A DNA stretch of 37,156 bases, taken from a virus. Positions 2,830 through 25,533 of this stretch are shown here, piece after piece. Below the pieces are notes generated by a model. It worked only from the letters and a program-made list of their open reading frames with translations. It made no database searches and was not told the DNA's origin. The translations under genes and the position numbers were made by a program. Where the stretch lies: positions 1 through 37,156 of IMG/VR virus record IMGVR_UViG_3300005820_000005; one strand, given 5' to 3'. Each line of letters opens with the position of its first letter. Position 1 is the first letter of the stretch.

Positions 2830-3255
2830 CTATTTTCCTTCTTTTTTAATATAAGCGTATAAATCTAATACTCTGTTAGCCCATCCTCTAAAATATATTT
2901 TTGCCTGTTTAAATTTAGAATAAGCATATAGTCTTTTCAATAAGTAATCTCTCCAATCATTGTAAGCGTTCAGAAGCTCTATTGCCCTTCTTCTTCCCAT
3001 ATTGACAGCAGTATCGAAGACAACAATATTGAAGGGAAAAGGCAATTCATCACAACTTGTTTTTAGCCAGTAATTCTGATAATAAATCTCTTTTGCCTGC
3101 TTTAATGTTAGTTTACTAATATCAAGTTCAGGGTAAGATCTTTTAGATATTCCATATTTAGTTTCACCGCCAGGATCATTGGGGTCATTAGAATAACCGC
3201 CTTCCCACTTTAAGACAAATTTAATAGCTTTTTCAAAGTCTTTATTTTTTCCCAT
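2830..3255 (-). CDS. Endolysin, GH108-type muramidase
   Basis: 141 residues. The N-terminal motif FVLKWEGGYSNDPNDPGG contains the glutamate (about residue 18) that is catalytic in glycoside hydrolase family 108 (the ZliS/secretion-activator family). The following GGETKYGIS and FDTAVNMG blocks are typical of the same family. Cleaves the glycan strand of peptidoglycan at lysis. No signal peptide, so it needs a holin. It has a TAGGAGAA ribosome site and overlaps the membrane protein before it by 14 bases. Confidence 0.88.
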   Translation of the reverse strand: MGKNKDFEKAIKFVLKWEGGYSNDPNDPGGETKYGISKRSYPELDISKLTLKQAKEIYYQNYWLKTSCDELPFPFNIVVFDTAVNMGRRRAIELLNAYNDWRDYLLKRLYAYSKFKQAKIYFRGWANRVLDLYAYIKKEGK

Positions 3256-3562
3256 TTATTCTCCTATCAACACTCTCTATTAAAGTACATAGTTTCACTT
3301 GATGTTTTGAAATACTGTCTAAAACTCCAGAAGTCTTCTCAAGGCAACTTTCCATACTTCGATGGTTAGAGTCAGTTTTCTTACTAAGGTTAGCCATTGA
3401 ATTTAATATCTCGGTATTTTTCTGTAAATTCTGTTTCTCTAATTCACTATCACCAAGTAACTTCTTTCTCATTACTTCAATAAAAAATTTTAGTAACATA
3501 TAGGCTATAATAACTGATACTAAATTATCAGCTATTAATTTAAACCATTGTGTTCCTTCCAT
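3242..3562 (-). CDS. Single-TM coiled-coil protein, holin candidate
   Basis: 106 residues: a membrane segment at about residues 10-28 (LIADNLVSVIIAYMLLKFF), then a long charged coiled coil. The layout recalls the BhlA/UviB class of small holin-like proteins. It overlaps the endolysin gene start, which supports a lysis role. The ribosome site is AAGGAGATGA. Alternatives are a spanin-like or tail-tip membrane protein. Confidence 0.65.
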   Translation of the reverse strand: MEGTQWFKLIADNLVSVIIAYMLLKFFIEVMRKKLLGDSELEKQNLQKNTEILNSMANLSKKTDSNHRSMESCLEKTSGVLDSISKHQVKLCTLIESVDRRINGKK

Positions 3563-3602: not shown

Positions 3603-4097
3603 TCAAAAAACCCCAAAAATTTTATACTTTTTACTCAATATTTTACCTTGCCAATCCCTCACTACCATACTCTTTAGCCCGTCTGGGAATGTATATTTAC
3701 AAGCATCTTCATAGCTGTTATACCCTGACTTAAATTCCTTATTGCTAAACAAGGCAAATTTCCCATTGTAAGGAAATACAGTTATAGCGTGGCATTTAAC
3801 ATTCCGAATCTTGTTACCCCACCTTGCCTTATCATACCCACTACTGATTACACCTTTAGCATTAATTCCCATTACCCGCTTTAAGACATCTACAGTAAAT
3901 CGCATTGTGTCATCACAATCATAGGTCACTTTATTAAGCGTCTCTTCAGGGGTCTGCCAATAATCAGTTACATCTTCTTTGCGTTTGAATTGCTGTATAA
4001 ATTGATGTAATTTAGCTACACTGGTCAGTCCTTTAACTACCGATAAATACTCGGTAGTTGGTATAAATTTAGTCCATTTATTTTTTACAAAACACAT
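3603..4097 (-). CDS. Transglutaminase-like cysteine protein
   Basis: 164 residues. A catalytic Cys61 in VTYDCDDTMRF, His103 in KCHAITVFPY and Asn119 in FALFSNK are spaced as in the transglutaminase/BTLCP cysteine-protease fold. The third residue is Asn rather than Asp. It could cut or crosslink protein or wall peptides. It sits between tail fibre and lysis genes and overlaps the membrane gene before it by 13 bases. A GGTGGTGAT ribosome site precedes the ATG. Confidence 0.65.
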   Translation of the reverse strand: MCFVKNKWTKFIPTTEYLSVVKGLTSVAKLHQFIQQFKRKEDVTDYWQTPEETLNKVTYDCDDTMRFTVDVLKRVMGINAKGVISSGYDKARWGNKIRNVKCHAITVFPYNGKFALFSNKEFKSGYNSYEDACKYTFPDGLKSMVVRDWQGKILSKKYKIFGVF

Positions 4098-4303: not shown

Positions 4304-5866
4304 TCACTCCTTTTCAATTAAATAAATATTACCGAAGCAATATGTTTCTCCCGCTACTAAATTAGCAGTATCTGCATTGTTTGTATATGCCATGAGTTGA
4401 ACGTAATCATCTTTACTAAGAGCAAATCTATTCATAACATTCGCTCCTTGTATTTCAGTTCCAGCAGTTTCTAATCTACCGAAAGCTCTCTGCGTCCCAT
4501 TTATGGCTATTTGAGTTACTATTTTCTTATGGTCAGCATTCGTATTCCACATTAATGAATTAATAATCATATAATCGCCAGGAATAGGAGCAACAAATCT
4601 CGAATTCTTAATTTCATAACCTTCTCCATCTACAAATATGTCTTTATCTATGGTTACATCAGTTGCAGAATTTACAACGGTAATATAAGCATAAGTTGTA
4701 TCGGTAGTATTTTTAACCAAATAACCTACCATTCCAGCGACGAAGGCTCCACCAGCCGCTACTAAATGATTTGCAGAGGTATCAGTGGCGTTACCAGAAT
4801 CCCAAACAGATGTATCATAATTACTACCAATGTCATAATTCTCTGTATCCATATTTACTGTCGCATAAATATCAGCAGTAGGCGAGGATTGATTTGTTCC
4901 CAAATAAACACTAACTTTTGGCACTTGCCCTAAAGCTTCATCTATAACTTGCCAATTAGTACCATCACTTACTACTGTGACTTCTGCACAATAAGTATTA
5001 AGTCGTGCATAAGTTTGGACTGGTGCACCTGTAGAATTTTCATAATTCAGTGTTTCTGTTCCGTCACCATCTAAAGTAATCAAATTGTAGTTAGCGTCAG
5101 TTTTTATAAAGTGATAAGTTAAACCTGTATTGCCAGATGCTGTAGGCAAAGTAAGCGTATAAGCAGCCGCAGCACTTACATTTACTACTCCTGCCTCTGC
5201 TACAGTTAAAGTTGCTGTATCCGTTTTAGTAGTTACTGTATACTTAGGAGTTATACTTGCTGTCCCCTCAAAGGTTAATACACCACCAGCACTAACATTA
5301 ATGAAATTAGTCCACACACCATCACCCATTTTGATGTTGCCTGCGTTGTCTATTGCCATGCGTAAAACAGGAGTATCTGAGCCATCAGGAGTAGTGAGAA
5401 ATTCTAATCTTCCAGGCATATCATCTGCACCAGGGTCTCCATCAGCAAAGGCTTTTATTACCGCTCCTGATACTTCATAATCGGTATGCCATCCAGTAAA
5501 AGTAATTCTCCCTAATTCGTCATCATCAAAGACATTCTTCGTTGGGTCTCCATCTCTTTCCCTTTTAAAATAGAGGTCTCCACCCCAATTTGAATCAGAA
5601 GTCCTTGAAATATATAAAAAATCTTTCATTTTCCAAGTTCCTGTTACCGTTTCATTCTCATCTAACATAGCAATAGAAGCTACATCAGAGAGGTCATCTG
5701 AAGTTATCTGAACACCATTAATGTAATAGTTAGAACCACTTGAAATGCCTACATTACCATCAAAATATCCTTCTGCACCTGTCTTGCCATAAGGAATTGC
5801 AAAAACATTTATTGGTAATAGCAATAAACATACTATAATAATTAAAATTATTCTTTTTATCCTCAT
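4304..5866 (-). CDS. Tail fibre with signal peptide and C1q-like knob
   Basis: About 520 residues. I chose the ATG at 5866 (MRIKRIILIII...), which has AGGTGA five bases before it; the ATG at 5902 lies inside a stable hairpin. The N-terminus is a textbook Sec signal peptide with cleavage after VFA. Then a shaft part (DGNVGISSGSNYYINGVQIT) repeats a motif of the next fibre gene, a low-complexity Thr/Ala middle follows, and the last 190 or so residues (from VSVYLGTNQ) look like a C1q/TNF-type trimeric receptor-binding knob. Probably the host-contacting tip of the tail. The signal peptide is unexpected for a virion protein. Confidence 0.7.
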   Translation of the reverse strand: MRIKRIILIIIVCLLLLPINVFAIPYGKTGAEGYFDGNVGISSGSNYYINGVQITSDDLSDVASIAMLDENETVTGTWKMKDFLYISRTSDSNWGGDLYFKRERDGDPTKNVFDDDELGRITFTGWHTDYEVSGAVIKAFADGDPGADDMPGRLEFLTTPDGSDTPVLRMAIDNAGNIKMGDGVWTNFINVSAGGVLTFEGTASITPKYTVTTKTDTATLTVAEAGVVNVSAAAAYTLTLPTASGNTGLTYHFIKTDANYNLITLDGDGTETLNYENSTGAPVQTYARLNTYCAEVTVVSDGTNWQVIDEALGQVPKVSVYLGTNQSSPTADIYATVNMDTENYDIGSNYDTSVWDSGNATDTSANHLVAAGGAFVAGMVGYLVKNTTDTTYAYITVVNSATDVTIDKDIFVDGEGYEIKNSRFVAPIPGDYMIINSLMWNTNADHKKIVTQIAINGTQRAFGRLETAGTEIQGANVMNRFALSKDDYVQLMAYTNNADTANLVAGETYCFGNIYLIEKE

Positions 5867-5883
5867 ATAGTCACCTACTTTAA

Positions 5884-5910
5884 ATGGGGTAGTGTTTGCC
5901 ACTACCCCAT
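5884..5910 (-). terminator. Perfect 11-base hairpin between two fibre genes
   Basis: ATGGGGTAGTG (5884-5894) pairs perfectly with 5900-5910 across a five-base loop. On the minus strand only TTT follows, so it would be a weak terminator or an RNA-processing/translation barrier between the two fibre cistrons. It also hides an alternative ATG at 5902. Confidence 0.5.
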
Positions 5911-5917
5911 AAATTAA

Positions 5918-7240
5918 TTAATTATGATAGTAAATCGTTATATCTTCGTTTTGCACAATAGTTGTACAATCAAGAGTATTATTAGCTACGTTACCTTTTC
6001 CAGAAATCTCGCTAAACTCTCCTACGCCGTCAACTGTTTTCATATAGATATCTGCTTCTTCACTGATAGCATTAGGCAATCCAATCAAATCTCCAATTCC
6101 TACTTCAACATGCTTAGTAGCAAGAAGTCCATCAGATATATTAACATTAGTTACGGTTACGAATGCCTTTACTCCTTGTGTAGTAGCACCATCAGCTATA
6201 GCTATTGCGTCAGTCTGTCCAGTAGTTCCATCAGCAAGCGTTCCAGTTATAGTAACAACTCCAGTAGCTCCAGCATCTCCAGTTGTTGTAATATTTCTAC
6301 CGAAGTCAGGTTCTGTATTAGCTAAATCTACACCCGATTTATCTTGTGATGCCCCTGTTCCTTCTGTAGAAACAAGAATATAATCAACATCAGCTGCATC
6401 AACATCCATTAGATGTAATACCCAATTTTTCCCTACACCAGCAGCATCATCAACATAGCCCTGGGTAACAAGTTTATTATTGTCCCCAGTACCAGTAGAA
6501 AAACTCGCTATGGCAGTTTCCACTTCATTAATCGTAAATTTAATTTGATTATCCGTTCCAAAACTAATCAAATTGTGAGTATCCCTGCCAACAGTTAAAG
6601 CTGTATTAGTTAAACTTGTAATATCGGTATTAGCTCCACAAGCTGCGACGTTAGTCCCAATAACTAAACCTAAATCAGTCCTAACTTCCGACATTGTTCT
6701 TATAGAGTAAGTATCTTCTGCGGTTATCTTAATCATACTTGCTTCAACATAACCTAAAGCAGCCAAATTAGTTAAACCAGTATCCAATGGTTGATAAGTT
6801 CCAGATATATCAGGAATATCACCAGCTGCTAAAACTTCATAGCTTGGCAATCCACCACTGACAGTTCTTAAAAACTTGTTTGTAGCGCCCGCTTCTGATG
6901 CAAGTCTTGTCAATACACCATCAGCAGCTCTATAATATATATCACCCGTTCCATCACTACCAAGTGTCATAGTAACGCCATTTATAACTACTCCTGTTGA
7001 TAACGTTCCGGTTGTTACAGTTCCCAATGTAGTTATACTTGCGCTACCAGCAATAGGCGAATATATGGTGCTTATTGCAACTTCATTAACATAGTAATCC
7101 TTGCCACTGGGTACATTTACGTCTCCATCCATATCCGTTGTTGGGCCGATATTAACTGCACTAAATGCTGCAAAAACACTTGTAGGCACACTCATAAATA
7201 TGAGTGAAACCACCATTAAAAATATAATTAATTTCTTCAT
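5918..7240 (-). CDS. Tail fibre protein with signal peptide
   Basis: 440 residues, ATG preceded by AGAGGTGAG. The first 24 residues (MKKLIIFLMVVSLIFMS...SVFA) form a clear Sec signal peptide. Then a Gly/Thr-rich fibre shaft starting with DGDVNVPSGKDYYVNEVAIS, which is paralogous to the start of the downstream fibre. The last 140 residues or so (from PDFGRNITTTG to IYYHN) are paralogous to the C-terminus of the protein at 7604-8926. No enzyme motif. Likely a trimeric fibre subunit. Confidence 0.7.
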   Translation of the reverse strand: MKKLIIFLMVVSLIFMSVPTSVFAAFSAVNIGPTTDMDGDVNVPSGKDYYVNEVAISTIYSPIAGSASITTLGTVTTGTLSTGVVINGVTMTLGSDGTGDIYYRAADGVLTRLASEAGATNKFLRTVSGGLPSYEVLAAGDIPDISGTYQPLDTGLTNLAALGYVEASMIKITAEDTYSIRTMSEVRTDLGLVIGTNVAACGANTDITSLTNTALTVGRDTHNLISFGTDNQIKFTINEVETAIASFSTGTGDNNKLVTQGYVDDAAGVGKNWVLHLMDVDAADVDYILVSTEGTGASQDKSGVDLANTEPDFGRNITTTGDAGATGVVTITGTLADGTTGQTDAIAIADGATTQGVKAFVTVTNVNISDGLLATKHVEVGIGDLIGLPNAISEEADIYMKTVDGVGEFSEISGKGNVANNTLDCTTIVQNEDITIYYHN

Positions 7241-7263
7241 TTTTTCTCACCTCTTTTCATAAT

Positions 7264-7590
7264 TTATTTTTTAGGCCTTACGTGTATTGTTATTTCGTAT
7301 CTGTCTCCTTCTAAAAATATATTCGAGTATGTAAACGAATCTTCACATATATGTAACTCACCAACTACTTGAACGGCACAGTTATTCAACTTTATCAACT
7401 TATCATTCATGCCATCAATTATAGTAACGTCTAAACGAGTAACTGCTTTAGGAACAGGTTTAGGAAAATCGACCTCTCCAACTTCATTTGGATTAGCATT
7501 CATATTATCAGTATAATCTTCTTCTTGTGCTCCTGCGTACAACAAGAAAGCCACACATATAATCACTACAAATACTAAAAAACGCTTCAT
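7264..7590 (-). CDS. Small secreted protein in the fibre block
   Basis: 108 residues with an N-terminal signal peptide (MKRFLVFVVIICVAFLLYAGA) and a strong AAGGAGGTG ribosome site. The mature part has an acidic linker and a beta-rich C-terminus (residues about 45-108) ending in EITIHVRPKK. No family recognised. Its place between two fibre genes suggests a fibre chaperone, linker or exported partner. Confidence 0.6.
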   Translation of the reverse strand: MKRFLVFVVIICVAFLLYAGAQEEDYTDNMNANPNEVGEVDFPKPVPKAVTRLDVTIIDGMNDKLIKLNNCAVQVVGELHICEDSFTYSNIFLEGDRYEITIHVRPKK

Positions 7591-7603
7591 TTTTTCACCT
7601 CCT

Positions 7604-8926
7604 TTATATGGTTAATACGGATTTATACCTTATTTCCATATCCTCATAATTCTCTATAGTTGCACAATCTACGGTATGGTAAGTGGTATTCACCTTACCG
7701 GATAATTCGCTTGTTTTATCTTCGGTATTTACTTTCTTTTTAAATACATCGGCAGCCGAAGTTATTGGATTAGATAATCCTATCTTGTCAGAAAACCCTA
7801 CTGTTACCGTATCAGAAGCAGATACTCCGGCAGGAATATTAATATTAGTAACCACATCAAAGGCCTTTACGCCATAAGCGGTTGAACCTGCTATAATAGG
7901 GATTACATCCGTATCTTCTGTCCCCCTTACCAATCCTGTAATAGTTACATTCCCCGATGGAGCAGCCACATTGGTAGTCGTTATACTCGTATTCCTGGCA
8001 TAATCAGGATTGGTAATATCCTCTGTAATATTTTGTTCTGAACCTGTCCCTGTGATAGCTGCGTGAATACCATCCTCATCAGCCGGTAATAAATCCTGAA
8101 AAGACTGAGATATTACCCTTGAAAATGTATGAAATATAAAAGTCCTTTTATCGGTAACAGAATCAACTACGCCACCAGAGATAACTACCGTTGCAAGCTG
8201 AATTGAATTAGTCGGTATAGTCCCGGTCGTATAACTTATTACCCCGGTTTGAGTGAGATAAATTTTATAGGTATCATCCTCTGTCGGCAGGGTATAAGTT
8301 TGTGCTACAGATAAGTATATTCTAATATTATTAATATACGCATATCCGCTCGCAATATCGATTTTACTGTCAGCTCCGGCATTATCGGTAACCTCTAATT
8401 TATTCCCCTTATAGACAACACCATTCCCGAACAGTTCAGTAAATCCCTCACATAAAGAAGATGAGGGCTCTTGATTTAATACATATATCTGGAAAGTAAC
8501 TGCTCCCTCTACGGCACTATTAGGCAAGTGGACCCTAACCATAATTTTACGGTAACAATCGGCTGGTATGTTTCCTATGTCAAGCGGTAGATTTAATCCT
8601 ACAGGTTGAAATTCAGTCATATCATCATCAGTTTCACCAGAGGAATCTCCACCATTCGCGCCATCATGAATGGTAAGGGATTTTATTTCTACCCAATGCT
8701 GTTTGGTGATATTTTTGACTTCATCCCCGTTATCATCCCTGGCACTTATCTTGACAGACGTCATTCTAGAGGAACTTTTTACCATGCCCTTATCGTTCCA
8801 AACGTGATATTCTGTCCCTGCTTCCAATAATAGGAAAGTCCCTGCATCACCATTGCCATAATTTATCGCAGATACTTCTTCGCTATCATCAGCATTATAT
8901 ATTTTTGGATTCGGGTCTACTGCCAT
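7604..8926 (-). CDS. Baseplate/upper fibre protein
   Basis: 440 residues with no signal peptide; GAGGTGATAAT precedes the ATG. The N-terminal half (residues 1-170) is a beta-rich domain. The middle (about 170-280: VVYKGNKLEVTDNAG..., then a 'valid up to boundary conditions' fibre-type stretch ending in TDKRTFIFHTF) resembles phage proteins that anchor fibres. The C-terminal 140 residues are paralogous to those of 5918-7240 (shared blocks GVKAF, TNxNI, IGL, SGK, DC-T). The only large protein in this block that is not exported-looking, so it may be the attachment point. Confidence 0.6.
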   Translation of the reverse strand: MAVDPNPKIYNADDSEEVSAINYGNGDAGTFLLLEAGTEYHVWNDKGMVKSSSRMTSVKISARDDNGDEVKNITKQHWVEIKSLTIHDGANGGDSSGETDDDMTEFQPVGLNLPLDIGNIPADCYRKIMVRVHLPNSAVEGAVTFQIYVLNQEPSSSLCEGFTELFGNGVVYKGNKLEVTDNAGADSKIDIASGYAYINNIRIYLSVAQTYTLPTEDDTYKIYLTQTGVISYTTGTIPTNSIQLATVVISGGVVDSVTDKRTFIFHTFSRVISQSFQDLLPADEDGIHAAITGTGSEQNITEDITNPDYARNTSITTTNVAAPSGNVTITGLVRGTEDTDVIPIIAGSTAYGVKAFDVVTNINIPAGVSASDTVTVGFSDKIGLSNPITSAADVFKKKVNTEDKTSELSGKVNTTYHTVDCATIENYEDMEIRYKSVLTI

Positions 8927-8940
8927 ATTATCACCTCACT

Positions 8941-10056
8941 TTAAAAAGGATAAGCTCCAACGCTACTCGGCCAGTAACCTGCTCCAATTACTTCTATTAC
9001 CCATACTTTCTCACCAGTTTCTGTATATTTCCCTAAATACAATGATCCTCCGTATACTTTGCTTCCAAAAACATAAAAATAACCATCCTTGCTTGCCACA
9101 CTACCACATCGTGTTATTTCAGTAGACCAATCTATTTCACTTGCACCTAAATTTGTTGGAACATACCAAGGCTGTTTTGTAAAATCAACACCTAATACAG
9201 TACTTCCTGCAACTGCTAAAGAAGTTAATGAAGTCTTTTTACTATCTATTGCCACACTGGCAATTTTACTGCCGGTCGAAACTCTCCAAATTTCTATTTC
9301 ATCGCTTGAACTATTTACCATATAAAAATAATCATTATCATAAAAAGCCATACCATAAAATGAATTTGTCCAGGGGTCTAATTGGAATGAACTTAATATT
9401 TGCAGGGTCGAAGCACTTCTTTTCATAATCATATTATTATTTTCATCCGTAAACTCATGCGTAAAAATATAACCATCACTTGATATGGCTATATGTCGAA
9501 TTTGATAAGACGCACTAAGTTTAATTACTTCATTCCCTAAAGAATCATATTTTATTATTTTATGTGGACTAGAAAAAGCAACATAATAAACATTACCGGA
9601 AGAATCTACGCACATTCCGTTATACATAAGTTGATAATCTTCTGGTGTCCAACTACTAACCTCGACCCCTTCGGTAGTAAATGATTTTATAGTACTTATT
9701 TCAGGATTGCCAGTTTCAAAAGTAACAAATATTTCTCCTGTAATAGCTGGTGCAGTCGGCTTTACTGGTGGCAATATTATCGGCAATTCCTTACATCCAT
9801 TTTTATATAATATTCTCACTTTATCTCCTACCGCTAAATCGGGTTCTCTGGCTAAGGTAAAAACTTTTGGATATTCTTTCGCCTCTCCTGATATAAATAC
9901 GTCATAACTGCCATTGCCATTATCCTTGGCCACTTCTCCAGTTACCACAAATCCCCGATGGATTATATTCCCAATATTATCTTTTATAATTGCATTAATC
10001 GGTCTTAACATGATTAAAACCCCTATAAATAATAATATAAATAATAATTTTTTCAT
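8941..10056 (-). CDS. OB-fold plus beta-propeller tail protein
   Basis: 371 residues from the ATG at 10056 (GGGGG about nine bases upstream). Residues 1-20 are a hydrophobic signal-like peptide; 16-100 are paralogous to the whole small baseplate protein just upstream (MLRP...IGNIIHRG against MLRF...VGNIKHRG; later NGxYDV, EPD and GI-E-PII). Residues 120-371 contain repeated strand patterns such as VDSSGNVYYVA and ISSDGYIFTHE, typical of an NHL/SMP30-type beta-propeller, likely binding glycans or protein. A second ATG at 10011, behind AGGGG, would make a form without the signal peptide. Confidence 0.65.
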   Translation of the reverse strand: MKKLLFILLFIGVLIMLRPINAIIKDNIGNIIHRGFVVTGEVAKDNGNGSYDVFISGEAKEYPKVFTLAREPDLAVGDKVRILYKNGCKELPIILPPVKPTAPAITGEIFVTFETGNPEISTIKSFTTEGVEVSSWTPEDYQLMYNGMCVDSSGNVYYVAFSSPHKIIKYDSLGNEVIKLSASYQIRHIAISSDGYIFTHEFTDENNNMIMKRSASTLQILSSFQLDPWTNSFYGMAFYDNDYFYMVNSSSDEIEIWRVSTGSKIASVAIDSKKTSLTSLAVAGSTVLGVDFTKQPWYVPTNLGASEIDWSTEITRCGSVASKDGYFYVFGSKVYGGSLYLGKYTETGEKVWVIEVIGAGYWPSSVGAYPF

Positions 10057-10060
10057 TCAT

Positions 10061-10363
10061 TCAAACCCCCAAAGAATTAACCGAAGCAGTTGCCTCTATC
10101 TGTTGGATATCCCTTAATACACCGCAAATTATCGGTTTTTCTCTTATTCCATATTCAAATAAAATGCCAACATGTTCATTAACTTGATAATCAGGTTCCT
10201 TTTCAATAGTATAAATATCTATATAAGACTTTCCACTCCCGGCAATCTCCACATCATATTTACCATTACCCTTATCGGCAGTTACTATCCCGGTCATATA
10301 AGTACCTCGATGCTTAATATTGCCTACTGTATTACTCGAAGTAGCTTTATTAAATCTAAGCAT
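10061..10363 (-). CDS. Small baseplate OB-fold protein
   Basis: 100 residues. The ATG at 10363 has AGGA about ten bases upstream; a GTG three codons earlier is adjacent to that site and less likely. The NGxYDVxxxGSG and YQVNEHVGILFEYGIREKPIICG pattern is that of the OB-fold domain found in phage baseplate spike and hub-associated proteins (gp5-N/VgrG-like). Follows the hub gene and overlaps its end by eight bases. Confidence 0.6.
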   Translation of the reverse strand: MLRFNKATSSNTVGNIKHRGTYMTGIVTADKGNGKYDVEIAGSGKSYIDIYTIEKEPDYQVNEHVGILFEYGIREKPIICGVLRDIQQIEATASVNSLGV

Positions 10364-12071
10364 AAAAAACACATCCTATCCTAGAACGTGGCTTTATTGC
10401 TCCGGTTTCCGGGTCAATATCAAAAGTAAGCACTATTTCCTCTATGCGCCATCGTTCATTATAGCCAATATTATTATCGGTTAATTTTACTGCCTCACCT
10501 GCTACTATTTTAGGATTGAAATTAACCAAATAGTCGGGCTGTTTAGTATATCTATGACTATCCCTAATTCTCCTTTGCCCTATATCGATACATTGTGCTT
10601 CGGTTTCGGCCAAAGGATATTCTTCAGTGCCTTCTCCTTCTGGCTTTCTCACTCCATATTTAGCAATTGAAACAGAATCATTTACCACTGCCTTAATTTG
10701 AGTACGGATTATAGTAGATATTGTAGTCTCGTTAGGAATAGTCTCGGTGATCCAGATTGAACCACCTGCCACTAATTCTTTAGTCTTAATTACAATTTTT
10801 ATTGAAAAAGCCTTTTCAGTAAAATCCCAATCAAGCGTACTCTGAATCTCTCTATGAATATTAAAACCTGCACCGCCCTCCAAATATTTACCTGCCCCAC
10901 CCGTAACCGTAAACTCCATTCCCTGAACATTTAAATCGGAATTTAATTTTGTAACGGTGAATTTATAATCCTGATATTTGGGAAAGATAAATCCTGGTGG
11001 TTTGGTATATCCTATATATTTTGTAGTTACTTTAAAATTAGCATCCGAATAAGACCAGTTAGTTACACTTTCGCCTAAACTAAAACTTTTATTGATAGTA
11101 TGAGTATCTATTTTATATTCTTCTGTCGGTACTTCTACTTTCTGTTCTTCTTCCCCATACTCAACAGTTATTACCTCTTCTTCAAATACCGCCCCCAAAA
11201 TTGTTAATTGATTAATAATCCCCTCTTTTGTAGTAGTTAGACCTACTAATGCAAATTTATTTTCTCCATATTCCCAGTCAGGAGTGGGATATAAAGTTTC
11301 ATCAGTTTTGATTACTTTTTTATAAACTAACATCTTAGCATTTTCATCAAACCGTATTACCCAACCTTCGATCATCATTTCCTTCTGGATCATGTCCCAC
11401 AGGAGCTGATCCTGGAAGGAATGATCAATAACGGTCGTGCTTCCTGTCGGTACATCCACATTGGTTATACCTGCCTGGCTGGCCAGATATCTTATAATTG
11501 CCCCCCTGGTTTTTGCAGTGGCTGCTTCCTGGACAGATATAAGGGTCATTCTCTTTAATAATTTCTTACCATATCCGGACCCAAAAATATATAAATTATA
11601 TTTACCAGCACCATCAGATCTTGTGCCATCGATCAACCCGGTAAATAATTTCACTTCCTGGCCATTAACATAGGAGGTTATAACTACTTCTTTATCTTCA
11701 GCTATATGAGGATTGATCAACGGTGAATATTGAAAATCACCCAAGTTAAAGGAAAATAGACTGATCAGATTCTCATTGTGCTGGATCATAATTTGACCTA
11801 TCAAGGCAGCCGACACATCTTCGCCATCGACAGTGATCTTTAGCCTTATACTTTGCTTAATTCCTCCACCTGGTTGCCCTACTGAAGGAATCACTATTCC
11901 CAAACAAGCATTGACTAAATCTCTTTTCACAGTTAAATTACAATCAATTATCCTACCGAAGAAATTCTCGTCATTAGCATTAACGTGTAAATTACAATCT
12001 ATTGCCTTATAAGTAGGAAAATCAGCAGGTTGCTCACTTACCGCTAGAAAACAATCAATAACAGTTATCAT
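10356..12071 (-). CDS. Tail hub / baseplate protein (gpD/gp27-like)
   Basis: 571 residues. From about residue 75 (IRLKITVDGEDVSAALIGQIMI) the sequence follows the late-control-D / tail-associated-hub fold: a first beta-barrel, then GLIDGTRSDGAGKYNLYIFGSGYGKKLLKRM, a helical part, and a second barrel. The first 60 residues contain three repeats of the form AIDCNLHV / IIDCNLTV, an odd cysteine-bearing addition. Forms the ring that closes the tail tube. Starts in an ATGA overlap with the preceding gene. Confidence 0.7.
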   Translation of the reverse strand: MITVIDCFLAVSEQPADFPTYKAIDCNLHVNANDENFFGRIIDCNLTVKRDLVNACLGIVIPSVGQPGGGIKQSIRLKITVDGEDVSAALIGQIMIQHNENLISLFSFNLGDFQYSPLINPHIAEDKEVVITSYVNGQEVKLFTGLIDGTRSDGAGKYNLYIFGSGYGKKLLKRMTLISVQEAATAKTRGAIIRYLASQAGITNVDVPTGSTTVIDHSFQDQLLWDMIQKEMMIEGWVIRFDENAKMLVYKKVIKTDETLYPTPDWEYGENKFALVGLTTTKEGIINQLTILGAVFEEEVITVEYGEEEQKVEVPTEEYKIDTHTINKSFSLGESVTNWSYSDANFKVTTKYIGYTKPPGFIFPKYQDYKFTVTKLNSDLNVQGMEFTVTGGAGKYLEGGAGFNIHREIQSTLDWDFTEKAFSIKIVIKTKELVAGGSIWITETIPNETTISTIIRTQIKAVVNDSVSIAKYGVRKPEGEGTEEYPLAETEAQCIDIGQRRIRDSHRYTKQPDYLVNFNPKIVAGEAVKLTDNNIGYNERWRIEEIVLTFDIDPETGAIKPRSRIGCVFYA

Positions 12072-19115: not shown

Positions 19116-20045
19116 TTAAGATTGAGCTCCGAAATTGATTTTAGGCTCAATAACGAGAGCACCGTTATTATTGTCCACATTCATTGCGGATTTTTTGGCA
19201 TTTATATCGTAAGCATCTCCGCCAACGTGGAATACATAATTATCGTAAACTAGAGCATTATCATTATTATCATCTATTCCAACCCCCGCACCAGCAAGAT
19301 GAATGCGATTTCTCCTAATAACAGCTCCGGTGGCAGTACAAGTATTTTGGATATAAATTCCCGTACCTGCAGCTTTTACTGCATTGACAATTTGGTTGTC
19401 CTCTATTATTGAATTATGGCAATATTTATCTGCTCCACCATTAAATTTAATACCATAATCACAATAAAGAGCAGCACCAGTCGTAAAGCGGTTATTTTTA
19501 ATTATTGTTTCCTTGCAATCATTAAAAGAAAGTGCAGCAGCCATCGCCGCACCATCGGGAACAAATTGACAATTTTCAATAATAGAACAATTTAAAATAT
19601 TGAAATCGCAGATATCACCAGAGCCTTTGCCTACGAATCTAATATTATATAAGTGTAATCCGGAACAAATTCCGGCCATTGCAATCCCAGTTGTAGGACG
19701 TATTTCAGTAGCCTTATCTGTCCCTATATGTCCTAATCCGATCATATGACAAGAAAATGGCAATGTCTCAATATTCTCGACATAAGTGGCAGGGGCTATA
19801 ATGATATAGGTATCTACTGATTCACCGGCCCGGGTTGCTCTATATGCTGTATGTGCAGTAATGGCAGCGGTAATAGTTTTTTTGGCGTTGGCCCAGGATA
19901 ATCCGTCATTTTCATTATCGCCATTATTGCCATCAACAAACCATATTTTACTTTGTACTCCGAATACCTGAACGCCCCGGAGAAATAGATTTTTATTAAA
20001 GTGAGCATTTCCAAGAAAAATATCTTTTCTATAATGCTTATCCAA
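19116..20045 (-). CDS. Right-handed beta-helix protein in the head block
   Basis: 309 residues. TTG start at 20045, eight bases after AAAGGAG; a TTG nine bases earlier touches the ribosome site. After a short basic N-terminus comes KIWFVDGNNGDNENDGLSWA, the usual opening of pectate-lyase-like helices, then many short IIENCQF, IIKNNRF, SIIEDNQI, AVIRRNRI, LVYDNYVF turns. Such folds bind or cut polysaccharide. Next to the capsid gene it is more likely a head fibre or decoration than a tailspike. Confidence 0.75.
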   Translation of the reverse strand: MDKHYRKDIFLGNAHFNKNLFLRGVQVFGVQSKIWFVDGNNGDNENDGLSWANAKKTITAAITAHTAYRATRAGESVDTYIIIAPATYVENIETLPFSCHMIGLGHIGTDKATEIRPTTGIAMAGICSGLHLYNIRFVGKGSGDICDFNILNCSIIENCQFVPDGAAMAAALSFNDCKETIIKNNRFTTGAALYCDYGIKFNGGADKYCHNSIIEDNQIVNAVKAAGTGIYIQNTCTATGAVIRRNRIHLAGAGVGIDDNNDNALVYDNYVFHVGGDAYDINAKKSAMNVDNNNGALVIEPKINFGAQS

Positions 20046-20101
20046 TTTTTTCAACTCCTTTCAAAAAGGGGAGGAAATAAAGATCCTCCCCTTAATTTTT
20101 T

Positions 20102-21467: not shown

Positions 21468-22028
21468 TTATTTTTTCTTTTTTTCTTCAGTAGAATCCAG
21501 AACAGCTAAGACCGCATCATGATAGGATACATCTTTATGCTCATCTATATACTTCTGGACTTTCTTTTCTTCCGGAGTTAATTTTTCTTTACCTTCTTCT
21601 TCCTGTTCCTCTTCGCCCTTGCTTAATTCAGCAAAAATGGAGTCAGAGAAATTAGGTTGAAGCTCGATAAATTTTTCCAGTAATTCGCGCTGTGAAAGTT
21701 TGGTCTCTTTGTCATCTACCGTAAAATTGATCTTCTTTTCATCAGAAGTGGACTCTACAAGAGCCATCAAAACTTCTTTTTGTTTAGGTAGAAAACGCAT
21801 GTCTTTATCGGAGCAGTGATCATCGATAAAGGTTTTAATCTCGGAGTCCCTTTTTTCCTTAGAGATTTTGTTTAATTTTTCTTCTGCTTCTTTGGATTTT
21901 TTCTCTTCGGCTTCATACTTCTCTTTGAATCCTTTACTATCCTCTGCTTCCTTTGTGACTTTCTCAAAATCTTCCACTGCAACGAATTTCTTTCCTTCTA
22001 GTTCTGTAATTTTTACTCCGTTTGGCAT
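21468..22028 (-). CDS. Probable scaffold protein from an internal start
   Basis: In-frame ATG at 22028 (MPNGVKITELEGKK) is preceded by GGAG and GAGAG seven to eleven bases upstream. The 186-residue product is a long glutamate/lysine coiled coil with a helical C-terminal part, the make-up of capsid scaffolds. Nested protease/scaffold genes are known in Mu (I/Z) and lambda (C/Nu3). Confidence 0.55.
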   Translation of the reverse strand: MPNGVKITELEGKKFVAVEDFEKVTKEAEDSKGFKEKYEAEEKKSKEAEEKLNKISKEKRDSEIKTFIDDHCSDKDMRFLPKQKEVLMALVESTSDEKKINFTVDDKETKLSQRELLEKFIELQPNFSDSIFAELSKGEEEQEEEGKEKLTPEEKKVQKYIDEHKDVSYHDAVLAVLDSTEEKKKK

Positions 22029-23366
22029 AATGTAACTCTCTCCTTTCTTCTTTTTTTCTTCTGCTTCTCGATCCTTTGCTCTCCTATGTATTTCAGCTAA
22101 AGCAGTTTTCTTAATAGTAGCTAAATCTTGACAGGTTAATCTTATATCTTCTTGGGTCAAATTATCATCAGAAGGAGTGGCCCAAGTAGTAAGTCCATAA
22201 TCAGAAGGGTGTTCAGAAAAATCTCCTGATAATGGACTTTTTGGTCCACCTCGAGCAGGAGTATCTTCCCCACCGGGTAAATTGCAAGGTGGTTTCATTC
22301 CTGCAGCAATCATACTGACCCTTCTTACAGTTCCTCGAATCGGCCCCCCGGCTGCCGCTGAAATAGATCCACCGCCTATTTTTGAAAAATGTAATTTCCA
22401 ATTATTGCTATAATTACCCTTCATTCCTTTACTAGCATGTGTACCATATTTATTTTTAGGTGAACCTGCAAAAAATTCATCAGCTATTTGATCTATAAAT
22501 TCATGGTTCATTCCCGGGCCCGGCCTTTCGACTCTTCTCATTTGCCCGCCACATTCGGGACATTTTATTTCATTACAATGTTTATCACTGGTCATTTTAT
22601 AACCACATTCAATACATTCACAATTATATTTTTCTGCTTTTTGATATATAATTATTTGAGCTTTTTCATCACTATCATATAAAGCAGCAATATCTTTCAA
22701 ATTAGTTACCGCCGGTAGATCAGCACCTAAAAAAGCTATAGCCGAAAGGACTTTTGCATACTTTTTTTGAGTGCTGGGCTCGGTATAATCGTATAAAATT
22801 TCACTTGATATCCTTTTATATGCTCCATTTTTAATTAATTGATATAGGACCTTAGGAACTTCCTTGATATCCACTAAAATTTTATTCCCTGCCCTCTTTA
22901 ATTTAGTGATCCATCCTCCAGCAGGGAATCCCGATTTTTGTAGTAGTCCCTGTTTATCATCATGGCCCAGTTTCACTTTGGGCTTTAATTTATCGATTAT
23001 TTCATTAGTACCATTTACGATATTATCAAGATCCTCATCGGTTATTTTATGCTTATTCCATTCCCCGGTGCCAAATACCTCAACATCTTTTAATTCGTAA
23101 GTCTGGGAATAAGCTTCCCATATTGCCAATTCCATAGTATTTAGATTCCCCTGGGTTTCAGTTTTAATCCAATTACCTTCTTTGTCTTTCCTCCAACCTG
23201 CTTTTTTAAGGCCGGCCCAGGCTGTAGCATTAGCCAAACCTTCTCTTTCAGCTCTATCTTTGTATTGTTCCCAGGCATTATTAAAAATATCAATCCAGGT
23301 TTTTTGGGCTTCAGCCGGTAAACTTTTTATCCCTTCCGGGATATTACTCGGATACTTGTAAGGCAT
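21468..23366 (-). CDS. ChaB domain - head protease - scaffold fusion
   Basis: 632 residues from the ATG at 23366 (MPYKYPSNIPEGIKSLPAEA), nine bases after AAGGAG; an ATG three codons earlier abuts the site. Residues 1-62 are a ChaB domain (ending AGWRKDKEGNW). About 75-215 resemble the Mu gpI protease (ELKDVEVFGTG ... KLGHDD ... GGWITKLKRAGNKI). Then a two-CxxC zinc ribbon (CIECGYK ... CPECGGQ), a Gly/Pro-rich linker, and a coiled-coil scaffold from about 447. Cuts itself and the scaffold during head maturation. Overlaps the portal gene by 23 bases. Confidence 0.75.
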   Translation of the reverse strand: MPYKYPSNIPEGIKSLPAEAQKTWIDIFNNAWEQYKDRAEREGLANATAWAGLKKAGWRKDKEGNWIKTETQGNLNTMELAIWEAYSQTYELKDVEVFGTGEWNKHKITDEDLDNIVNGTNEIIDKLKPKVKLGHDDKQGLLQKSGFPAGGWITKLKRAGNKILVDIKEVPKVLYQLIKNGAYKRISSEILYDYTEPSTQKKYAKVLSAIAFLGADLPAVTNLKDIAALYDSDEKAQIIIYQKAEKYNCECIECGYKMTSDKHCNEIKCPECGGQMRRVERPGPGMNHEFIDQIADEFFAGSPKNKYGTHASKGMKGNYSNNWKLHFSKIGGGSISAAAGGPIRGTVRRVSMIAAGMKPPCNLPGGEDTPARGGPKSPLSGDFSEHPSDYGLTTWATPSDDNLTQEDIRLTCQDLATIKKTALAEIHRRAKDREAEEKKKKGESYIMPNGVKITELEGKKFVAVEDFEKVTKEAEDSKGFKEKYEAEEKKSKEAEEKLNKISKEKRDSEIKTFIDDHCSDKDMRFLPKQKEVLMALVESTSDEKKINFTVDDKETKLSQRELLEKFIELQPNFSDSIFAELSKGEEEQEEEGKEKLTPEEKKVQKYIDEHKDVSYHDAVLAVLDSTEEKKKK

Positions 23367-25533
23367 ATAACTCATCTCCTTTTATATATATAAAATTTTT
23401 AGGCTTTATAGCCATGATCCCCGCTTTCCTTTCCTTAGATATCGGGGTAAATTTTTCATATTTAGTTACAGGGACCAGAGTTCCCCTGCATTCATAATGA
23501 TTAGGTGGTTTTATCCTGGCTAAATCAGGATCGCCCTTTTCAAATACCTGGCCATCCAACCGTTCACATATCTCGGTAGTCCTATCATCCATAATAGAAG
23601 AATAGGCAACTGCCGGTACAAAATCCCCTACATCTGGATCGTTCATCATGGCCCAGCGCCCCTCATTGTAGGCATCGCTAAAATTGGTTCTTACTACATT
23701 TTCAAGGTGCCAGGGAGTTAATTCTCTCCCGGTTTTTATCTCTATTGCGGTAGTCCCGATATACTCTTTAAAAAATCCATCCAATTGAAACATTATCTCC
23801 GGGGTAGTAGCCCCGCCTTTTAAACCGTTATATAAAATTGCCCTTGCTTCCTTTAAGACGCTATCCCTTATCACCCCGGCAATCCAGAAGGATTTATTAT
23901 TTAGATATTGCAAGGCTTTTACAGGTGGCAACCCGGGAACTATATCGACAAATTTCATTTTACCCAGTTCACTTTTTACCTCTTCCCGGCCATACTGCCA
24001 TAAATCTCTTAGATATTCCTGGATCTTGCTCTTTAATTCTCCGACATAAGACAACTGAATTTTTTCAATTTGAGAAGCTGAATTGGTTTCAATTATCTTT
24101 CTTTTTAAAATATCTTTTTTGAGGGATTCTTTTTGCTTGGTTATAATCTTTATAAGATCTTCTTTGGCTTTTGCTTCCCACCCATCTAAGTTTTTTACTA
24201 TCCTAGTAAAATTACATTTTTTTTCATATTGATTAGTTTGCCTTGATAGCCCAGATTGATATTCTTCTATGAAGCCCCCGCCTTTAGGCTTGGGTTCGGG
24301 TAAGACTATACCTTCTTCTTTGGCTGGAATTTTAAGGAATCCCCGGACCCACTCTTCTTCTGGATTGATTAAACCTGCATCAACCAGCATTTTAGCAATC
24401 TTAGCCTTTGCTTCCTGATCATCTTTTATAAGTGATTCAAATTTAAAATAGGGATATTTAGGATTGGTGAAATTAAAATCTATCAATCGTTTTATGATCT
24501 GTTCCCGGACTAGGGTATCTTCGGTTTCTGTACCTAAATAATCAAGAATATAAATAAAAATATCAAAATGAGTTTTAGATAAAGCCCAACTTCCCTTTTC
24601 TCCGGTATCCATAAGTAAAGTCCCTACCAATAAAGCCCGGGCAATCATGTTATTATTGGTGTCAAAGGCTGACTTATATCCCGCGTCTCCTCTCCGGACA
24701 GCCTCTAAAAGTTCAGCTTCCAAACCTTTGGGCATTACTATTGCAGTATCGGTTTGAATGGTTTTTAATATGTCTAAATATTCATCCTGTTTAGCCTTAT
24801 TAGTCCCGGTTCCATAACGACCTATTACCGTAGGCTGGCCAAACTTTTCTAAAAAGATATTCCAGAATCTTTGAACGATATCATTAGAGAAATAATACCG
24901 GTAGGCAGCCCTAAAATCACTCTCACCATACAAGCTGTCTGCATCATCATCATTAGGATTATAGGCAAAGAGAATAAATTTATTTATAGGTAAATGCTTA
25001 TTGTAACCTTCAATTAGGCCTTTTTCTTCAATATTGCCATGCTCATCACATTTAAACATATAATTTACAGCTTTCCGGACCTTGATATTATCAATCCCGA
25101 TCATCCCCTTAAATTCTCCGGTAGGAAGGACCTTATAATTAATTTCAGCCACTGAAAAACCGTCACGCATAGCATTCCATATTTTGAGCAGGGTATTATT
25201 TACGTTCCCCTTCATCTCTGAAAAGCAATGCTCGATAAATTCGGCCTGTCTAACTGATTCTGGATCATCTTCATCTTCTGGCCTTATACTCCAGGGGGTA
25301 GATAACCGGGCATGTTTTTTTAACATAAAGACAGCTTTAACCTGGCCATCCCGCCTTTGCATTTTTCTATATATTTCCAATCCCTTTTTTTCTACCAGAT
25401 CATCAGGATTGTAGACAGGAAGATCACCAATACCCCAGATATCAGTTCCAGAGTGGGATATTTCGCCCATTTCCGGTTTAAGCAATTTTTTTATAGCATT
25501 TGTAGTATTCTGAAACGTATCTTTTAAATCCAT
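23344..25533 (-). CDS. Portal (DUF935, Mu gp29-like) fused to MuF
   Basis: 729 residues, AAAAGG ribosome site. Residues 1 to about 430 are a DUF935-type portal (IYRKMQRRDGQVKAVFMLKK, RFWNIFLEKFGQPTVIGRY). The region from about 470 is helical, and about 600-700 is a MuF minor head domain (NVVRTNFSDAYNEGRWAMM, DDRTTEICERLDGQVF, PNHYECRGTLVPV). In Mu these are two genes. Forms the DNA entry ring and carries ejected or internal protein. Confidence 0.85.
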   Translation of the reverse strand: MDLKDTFQNTTNAIKKLLKPEMGEISHSGTDIWGIGDLPVYNPDDLVEKKGLEIYRKMQRRDGQVKAVFMLKKHARLSTPWSIRPEDEDDPESVRQAEFIEHCFSEMKGNVNNTLLKIWNAMRDGFSVAEINYKVLPTGEFKGMIGIDNIKVRKAVNYMFKCDEHGNIEEKGLIEGYNKHLPINKFILFAYNPNDDDADSLYGESDFRAAYRYYFSNDIVQRFWNIFLEKFGQPTVIGRYGTGTNKAKQDEYLDILKTIQTDTAIVMPKGLEAELLEAVRRGDAGYKSAFDTNNNMIARALLVGTLLMDTGEKGSWALSKTHFDIFIYILDYLGTETEDTLVREQIIKRLIDFNFTNPKYPYFKFESLIKDDQEAKAKIAKMLVDAGLINPEEEWVRGFLKIPAKEEGIVLPEPKPKGGGFIEEYQSGLSRQTNQYEKKCNFTRIVKNLDGWEAKAKEDLIKIITKQKESLKKDILKRKIIETNSASQIEKIQLSYVGELKSKIQEYLRDLWQYGREEVKSELGKMKFVDIVPGLPPVKALQYLNNKSFWIAGVIRDSVLKEARAILYNGLKGGATTPEIMFQLDGFFKEYIGTTAIEIKTGRELTPWHLENVVRTNFSDAYNEGRWAMMNDPDVGDFVPAVAYSSIMDDRTTEICERLDGQVFEKGDPDLARIKPPNHYECRGTLVPVTKYEKFTPISKERKAGIMAIKPKNFIYIKGDELYALQVSE

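Follow-up and report, generated by a model that had tools for sequence, protein, structure and literature searches.

Fibre-like proteins with Sec-type signal peptides between the tail-tip and lysis genes of a tailed phage: candidate late-exported adhesins

Introduction

Why should genes in the tail-fibre region of a phage begin with export signals? In tailed phages, fibre assembly is regarded as cytoplasmic, and phage structural proteins normally lack a signal peptide, yet four minus-strand genes of IMG/VR virus record IMGVR_UViG_3300005820_000005 (4304-5866, 5918-7240, 7264-7590 and 8941-10056) were read, from the sequence alone, as starting with strong Sec signal peptides at well-placed ribosome sites. 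The whole virus record, 37,156 bases from a tailed phage, is referred to below as the window. The sequence-only reading offered three options and chose none of them: that fibres are exported and added late, that the proteins act outside the cell, or that the hydrophobic ends serve assembly or membrane contact. The comparison with related contigs described here leads us to favour, with a little less than even confidence, a late-expressed set of Sec-exported, fibre-derived adhesins that would act at the envelope or after lysis.

Neither the export of phage proteins nor the modularity of fibres is new in itself. In the open-licence literature, no paper was found that describes tail fibres, as a class, as bearing signal peptides, nor one that reports a recurrent, detachable export signal on fibre-type proteins across phage lineages. 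One paper describes the target proteins of phage diversity-generating retroelements as being without detectable signal peptides (PMC6199706).

Results

Three of the four N-termini are classical signal peptides

All four open reading frames (ORFs) are present on the minus strand, within the following arrangement:

10356..12071, minus strand: tail hub protein (PHROG tail protein, E 1.3e-6; alignment A3), the anchor for collecting relatives
8941..10056, minus strand: OB2, a paralogue of the neighbouring OB1 protein fused to a C-terminal beta-propeller, with an optional 15-residue hydrophobic N-terminal extension
10012..10056, minus strand: hydrophobic N-terminal extension of OB2, signal-anchor-like, without a signal peptidase site
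7604..8926, minus strand: signal-free fibre- or baseplate-like protein of 440 aa, present in every contig that reaches it
7264..7590, minus strand: small exported-type protein of 108 aa, with a signal peptide, a Pro/Glu-rich linker and a conserved domain of ~65 aa
7528..7590, minus strand: predicted signal peptide of the 7264-7590 protein, A-G-A|Q
5918..7240, minus strand: fibre-like protein of 440 aa with a cleavable Sec signal, its C-terminal ~200 aa common to 7604-8926
7169..7240, minus strand: predicted signal peptide of the 5918-7240 protein, S-V-F-A|A
4304..5866, minus strand: fibre-like protein of 520 aa with a cleavable Sec signal, the tail-fibre domain being residues 54-213
5798..5866, minus strand: predicted signal peptide of the 4304-5866 protein, N-V-F-A|I

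The expectation of well-placed ribosome sites held for all four starts. Good sites lie before 7590 (AAGGAGGTG), 7240 (AGAGGTGAG), 5866 (GTAGGTGA) and 10056 (GGGGG); the mechanical ORF of 4304-5866 extends to GTG 5902, and the sensible start is the ATG at 5866. A positively charged n-region, an uncharged h-region and an A-x-A-type site, as recognized by the Sec pathway and signal peptidase I (SPase I), occur together in three of the four proteins: 4304-5866 begins MRIKRIILIIIVCLLLLPINVFA|IPYG (site V-F-A), 5918-7240 begins MKKLIIFLMVVSLIFMSVPTSVFA|AFSA (V-F-A), and 7264-7590 begins MKRFLVFVVIICVAFLLYAGA|QEED (A-G-A). For these three, misplaced starts were considered and rejected, no alternative start with a ribosome site being evident by eye near the mature N-terminus. 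The fourth protein, OB2, begins MKKLLFILLFIGVLIMLRPINAIIKD, in which the n- and h-regions are present and a basic residue directly follows the h-region; no accepted cleavage motif was found in this N-terminus in any of the 10 copies examined, window included. The claim of four strong Sec signal peptides thus stands for three proteins and fails for OB2, whose N-terminus is hydrophobic without a signal peptidase site.

The 4304-5866 protein matches PHROG tail fiber profiles 18345 and 9942 (E 1.4e-10), and for 5918-7240 the best PHROG match falls short of significance (E 0.06). In the signal-bearing fibres no N-terminal virion-docking domain was found, and shaft-like sequence starts right at the cleavage site. 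In the DNA between genes 5918 and 4304, positions 5884-5910 on the minus strand form a perfect 11-bp hairpin (about -22 kcal/mol), which lies directly upstream of the 4304 ribosome site and has no proper T-run.

Signal-like starts are concentrated downstream of the tail hub gene

Relatives were collected by scanning viral contigs, which gave 5 loci for 5918-7240, 9 for OB2, 5 for 4304-5866, 2 for 7264-7590 and 15 for the hub alignment, many of them on shared contigs; a genome scan with the hub added 2 contigs of one WOR-3 metagenome-assembled genome (MAG). Sixteen contigs, including the window, share the hub, and 11 of these are long enough to show the fibre and lysis genes. Genes were called with a simple caller of our own and flagged by a home-made rule, namely a positive n-region followed by an uncharged hydrophobic 9-mer.

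Across the 16 contigs, 39 of the 107 genes downstream of the hub were flagged, a number that includes a 63-aa 'SPI' gene of contig L015 (a holin-like false positive) and a few small membrane proteins, versus 1 of the 173 genes upstream, this single one being a tape-measure gene of uncertain start. The Fisher p-value for this difference, 8e-18, is only a guide, because the genes of related contigs are not independent. Among seven reference phages, the same rule flagged 1 of 119 structural coding sequences, the lambda Lom gene: 1/82 in lambda, TP901-1, Mu and T7, and none of the 37 in crAss001, P22 and T4, tail fibres and spikes included. The premise that phage structural proteins normally lack signal peptides, and that these proteins carry them, is therefore borne out by both the hub-upstream genes and the reference phages, and the same two controls rule out hydrophobic starts arising by chance. 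Contamination with host DNA was likewise rejected, as the genes sit between tail and lysis genes, on one strand and in many contigs. In addition, a strict A/V/S/I/T-x-A site is present in 16 of 28 fibre-region proteins, compared with 8.0 +/- 2.0 in shuffled sequences; none of 2000 shuffles reached 16.

The signal-bearing fibres look like an accessory set built from shared modules

Besides OB2, at least one signal-bearing or signal-like fibre gene was found in 8 of the 11 informative contigs (the window, L024, L025, L027, L028, L029, L031 and L035), and none in the remaining three (L026, L033 and L015). Because these three contigs do without, the signal-bearing fibre set looks, from its distribution, to be accessory or dispensable.

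The fibre domain of 4304-5866 (residues 54-213 at least) also occurs in L004, L018, L019 and L020, in proteins of 461 to 1064 aa. It lies behind an N-terminal signal in 5/5 contigs, a small and selected set given that the relatives were collected with 4304-5866 itself, and its position within the protein ranges from residues 38-276 to residues 762-979. In a further contig, L028, the similarity to 4304-5866 covers residues 211-520 and leaves out the fibre domain; the L028 protein has a signal-like start without a strict site. In L004, L018, L019 and L020 the similarity to the hub family is confined to fibre, lysis or early genes; the major head protein of L004 is phrog_9953, compared with phrog_1005 in the window, and L020 has other tail proteins. 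The limited matching and the differing head and tail genes therefore suggest that the trait crosses phage lineages and, judged from these sequences, the unit that travels is the fibre-plus-lysis cassette.

Relatives lacking the N-terminal extensions had been named as what would speak against the sequence-only reading, and here the families differ. All six proteins related to 4304-5866 have a signal or signal-like start, and all three members of the 7264-7590 family have a hydrophobic N-terminus. The signal of 5918-7240 is kept by the relatives in alignment A4 and absent from the weak relative L007, which matches residues 33-150 only; two other relatives, L005 and L006, end at the contig edge, their N-termini lying outside the sequence. 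On the other hand, relatives without the extension do exist for two fibre families of related phages, those of L026 and L032. A 701-aa signal-bearing fibre of L029 is 64% identical over residues 23-701 to a signal-free 697-aa protein of L026, whose own part of the match begins at its residue 3. Proteins of the LamG type (lectin-like; LamG was assigned by Pfam in L031, L018 and L032) carry signals in L031, L018 and L035, and a signal-free relative in L032 is encoded upstream of the tail genes of that contig. In contig L019, the 'SPII' call for L019_7500 is doubtful, as its A-C-A reads as an SPase I site.

Domains are shared between the two kinds of protein in three further instances. An exported-type L024 protein matches an insertion in the L015 hub, a 165-aa signal-bearing protein of L029 matches the C-terminus of a signal-free L026 fibre, and within the window itself 5918-7240 (signal) and 7604-8926 (no signal) share about 200 C-terminal residues at 43% identity (E 7e-28). 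These pairs argue that the same adhesive domains occur on virion-type and exported proteins and, on the evidence of the alignments, the signals are gained and lost as whole N-terminal modules.

Outside these contigs, a search of a phage database gave nothing for 4304-5866, a single match of 44 residues for 5918-7240, a single weak one for OB2 and five weak N-terminal ones for 7604-8926.

OB2 may be made in two forms

The OB2 gene lies downstream of that of its paralogue OB1 and has an internal start:

10061..10372, minus strand: OB1, the OB2 paralogue without extension; probable start ATG 10363
10009..10024, minus strand: internal start of OB2, with AGGGG (10024-10020), 8 nt and ATG (10011-10009)

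The OB label was chosen from the position of these genes beside the hub, and we use it as an assumption. The hydrophobic extension of OB2 is present in 12 of the 16 hub contigs and exactly missing in the other four: L033 (same contig as L011), L015, L024 and L025. For OB2, then, relatives lacking the extension were found in a minority of contigs. The extension-less genes begin exactly at the internal Met, the homologous ATG being their sole start, and OB1 also aligns to OB2 from this residue onward.

All 12 extended copies have AGG[AG]G-8 nt-ATG at the internal start, and an upstream ribosome site is seen in the alignment as well. The Ile codon that supplies the first A of the internal site is ATA in 11/11 cases, compared with 17 of 41 other Ile codons in the extension (Fisher p = 3.6e-4), and the Gly codon of the site is GGA or GGG in 12/12 against a usage of 50%. 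A matching ribosome site is retained in L011 and L015 despite loss of the extension. The conserved internal site and its codon bias therefore suggest that both starts are used, subject to the relatedness of the sequences, and OB2 may thus make a long and a short form from two in-frame starts.

Dual starts are known from the lambda S holin. As in gene 13/13' of P22 (from its annotation), two in-frame starts would alter the N-terminus of a membrane-active phage protein, and OB2 shares with such genes the two starts with conserved ribosome sites. It differs from both in that the additional N-terminus, on a tail-tip paralogue, amounts to a complete hydrophobic segment of 15 residues, and in that both products are predicted ones.

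In the structural model, the C-terminus of OB2 is a beta-propeller (predicted local distance difference test, pLDDT, about 90) with PDB matches to propellers, and the OB part is of low confidence. In some relatives the propeller part is swapped for other domains. Two side observations concern N-termini in related contigs. In L016 (same contig as L028; 8328-8510 and 8444-9235), the reading frame of OB2 is interrupted once the N-terminal extension has ended. In L027 (at 7859) and L028 (at 12688), TTAGGG precedes an internal ATG at the end of a hydrophobic segment, a possible second dual start that is absent in L025.

The late region, its neighbours and the host

The window encodes a terminase, a Mu-type portal, an integrase, a major head protein (phrog_1005), a tape measure and tail genes. 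On the minus strand the tail genes are followed by the hub, OB1, OB2, 7604-8926, 7264, 5918, 4304, two small genes, and then the lysis genes:

3242..3562, minus strand: holin-like membrane protein, so described from sequence and position, with no meaningful family match
2830..3255, minus strand: endolysin (glycosyl hydrolase 108; Pfam PF05838, E 1.6e-28; PHROG endolysin, E 7e-39), which closes the late region

From OB1 to 4304 the intergenic gaps are only 3 to 51 nt; these genes therefore probably form a single late transcript and are made together with the tail.

Related late regions contain other proteins with export-type starts. A thioredoxin with a signal-like N-terminus and a WCKPC motif adjoins the lysis genes of L024 (17077-17514), a lipoprotein-type signal precedes a caspase-like peptidase C14 domain (E 4.6e-13) in the late region of L035 (18129-18977), and small lipoproteins occur in the late regions of L019, L020 and L028. 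Judged by their N-termini, these proteins add to the picture of a late secretome. In the window, the protein encoded at 3603-4097 has no Pfam match. Its family also includes members in L018, L033, L035, L036, L004 (11306-12208) and L026 (15760-16605); the signal-free members all begin Met-Cys, and those of L004 and L026 have lipoprotein- or anchor-like starts and Pro-rich linkers.

Only a single public genome gave matches to the hub family, on two contigs of WOR-3 MAG JAGMCL01, and among 147 WOR-3 genomes this same one alone was recovered. The first 10 kb of both contigs resemble free phage DNA, so the link to a WOR-3 host is weak. No convincing match between either half of the window and a clustered regularly interspaced short palindromic repeat (CRISPR) spacer was found in the 147 WOR-3 genomes; the best matches outside G001 (E 8.5e-6 and 1.9e-5) are short, 74-91% identical and noise-like for AT-rich DNA.

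Two further genes were noted. A ChaB domain (E 7.6e-12) is present in the 635-aa protein encoded at 21468-23375, beside the portal gene. The minus-strand gene 19116-20054, which follows the major head gene, has a start motif, VDGNNGDNENDGLSWANAKKTI, resembling that of the exported-type L029 beta-helix fibre and of the L026 relative without a signal; its product is a possible head fibre.

Discussion

The set compared with known phage proteins

The 4304-5866 protein resembles tail fibres of PHROG 18345 and 9942 in its profile match and in its place between tail tip and lysis genes. It has a fibre-type domain, but where such a protein would be expected to have a docking part and no export signal, it has a cleavable-type Sec signal, as does none of the 37 structural coding sequences of crAss001, P22 and T4. 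Lambda Lom offers another precedent: it bears a signal, was flagged by the same rule as the window proteins, and its gene lies between those of the central tail fibre J and the side fibres. In its annotation, however, Lom is an outer membrane protein and not a fibre, and it stands alone as one gene, whereas here up to five fibre- or lectin-like signal-bearing proteins stand in a row. The Llp lipoprotein of T5 serves as a functional model: in PMC9586334, this phage-coded exported protein is described as blocking the virion's own receptor. Llp is small, a lipoprotein and early, and the proteins studied here are larger, mostly of the SPase I type and encoded in the late region. Like exported accessory phage proteins of the Lom/Llp type, they are encoded among structural genes, bear signals and look dispensable.

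Possible roles of the signal-bearing proteins

Action outside the cell is the option favoured for the three cleavable proteins, because the set is accessory and because the late regions hold lipoproteins, an exported thioredoxin and a lipoprotein caspase; of the other options, membrane contact fits only OB2. In the explanation we hold most probable, though below an even chance, a small set of proteins built from tail-fibre domains and encoded between the tail-tip and lysis genes would be exported by Sec late in infection and trimmed by signal peptidase, the signals implying export before lysis. The mature proteins would remain in the envelope or at the cell surface, or be released at lysis, and would bind the same surface ligands as the virion, which is probable given that their domains are shared with virion-type proteins. 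The likeliest benefit would be that receptors on the dying cell and its debris are occupied, which would save progeny from loss and shut out rivals, as with T5 Llp; receptor occupation on the dying cell is our best single guess, by analogy. OB2 would be a special case, in which the internal start yields a cytosolic short form for the tail tip and the long form is anchored in the membrane.

Several observations weigh against this explanation. The signals were predicted by the home-made rule and not by SignalP, and 12 of the 28 fibre-region proteins have no strict cleavage site. The weak 5918-7240 relative L007 carries no signal, and the homologous signal-free fibres of L026 and L032 imply that these domains can function without being exported, an observation equally compatible with a role in the virion. 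Cysteines give no sign of periplasmic disulphides, at 6.2 per 1000 residues in exported and 8.5 per 1000 in structural proteins. The model of 7604-8926 has a pLDDT of 50 and the fold of the C-terminal domain that it shares with 5918-7240 is not predictable, so that receptor binding by this domain is a guess. Finally, the fibre-like genes look late, whereas T5-type exclusion proteins are said to be made early in infection (PMC9586334).

The main rival is that secretion takes the fibres into the periplasm or further out, where they fold before docking on virions at or after lysis, a course of events that is possible but on the unlikely side. It would account for L029, where all fibre-like genes in view except the one of the 7604 type have signals, and where little else would therefore be available as side fibres; for L026, which has the same kind of cassette without signals (the 64% identical 700-aa fibre), as if both routes converged; and for the exported L024 thioredoxin with its WCKPC motif, which could aid folding outside the cytosol. 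Yet L033 and L015 lack such fibres, so that the virion can do without them, and neither the shaft-like sequence that directly follows the cleavage site in place of a docking domain nor the absence of cysteine enrichment is what late loading would lead one to expect. An extended form of this proposal, which we consider unlikely, is that particles are finished from the outside: Sec-exported fibres would fold in the periplasm and tail tips would pick them up, at the membrane or once the cell has lysed; OB2 would act in the tail tip in its cytosolic form and meet the fibres in its membrane-anchored form, and the 'signal + fibre + lysis' cassette would spread among unrelated tailed phages. Retention of the hydrophobic ends, which would tether the tail tip or the fibres to the membrane or pierce the next host, fits OB2, as a tail-tip-like paralogue of OB1 with charge on both sides of the segment and no cleavage site, and would fit the signal-anchor-like ends in L027, L028 and L031. 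For the three canonical signals, a mere anchor would have no need of the cleavage motif, whose frequency in the set exceeds chance, and for the set this role is quite improbable.

That the proteins are instead made in the lysogen, where they would alter surface, adhesion or biofilm as thought for Lom, we regard as rather unlikely. The phage does carry an integrase, and Lom is both exported and encoded among lambda tail-fibre genes; a review (PMC8065619) lists it as an adhesion factor of lambdoid prophages. Against expression in the lysogen stand the gaps of 3 to 51 nt within the late cluster and the promoter-like matches in the region, which are no more frequent than in shuffled sequence (50 vs 48.1 +/- 7.1). 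It could also be supposed that the signals have no phage function, having hitchhiked with domains captured from cellular secreted proteins and been tolerated since. Secreted proteins of cells often have LamG, propeller or beta-helix folds, and matches to such folds were found. However, the signals are kept in 5/5 copies of the fibre domain despite reshuffling, and the 5918-type alignment matched only 1 of 147 WOR-3 genomes, the one holding the binned phage contigs, which makes this account highly improbable.

Implications

For annotation, a 'tail fibre' gene with a signal peptide does not necessarily encode a virion protein. A recurrent, modular export signal in phages with different heads and tails would mean either that free copies of adhesive domains are secreted, for receptor masking or cell adhesion as in the Sec-exported adhesin set favoured here, or that virions receive fibres after export.

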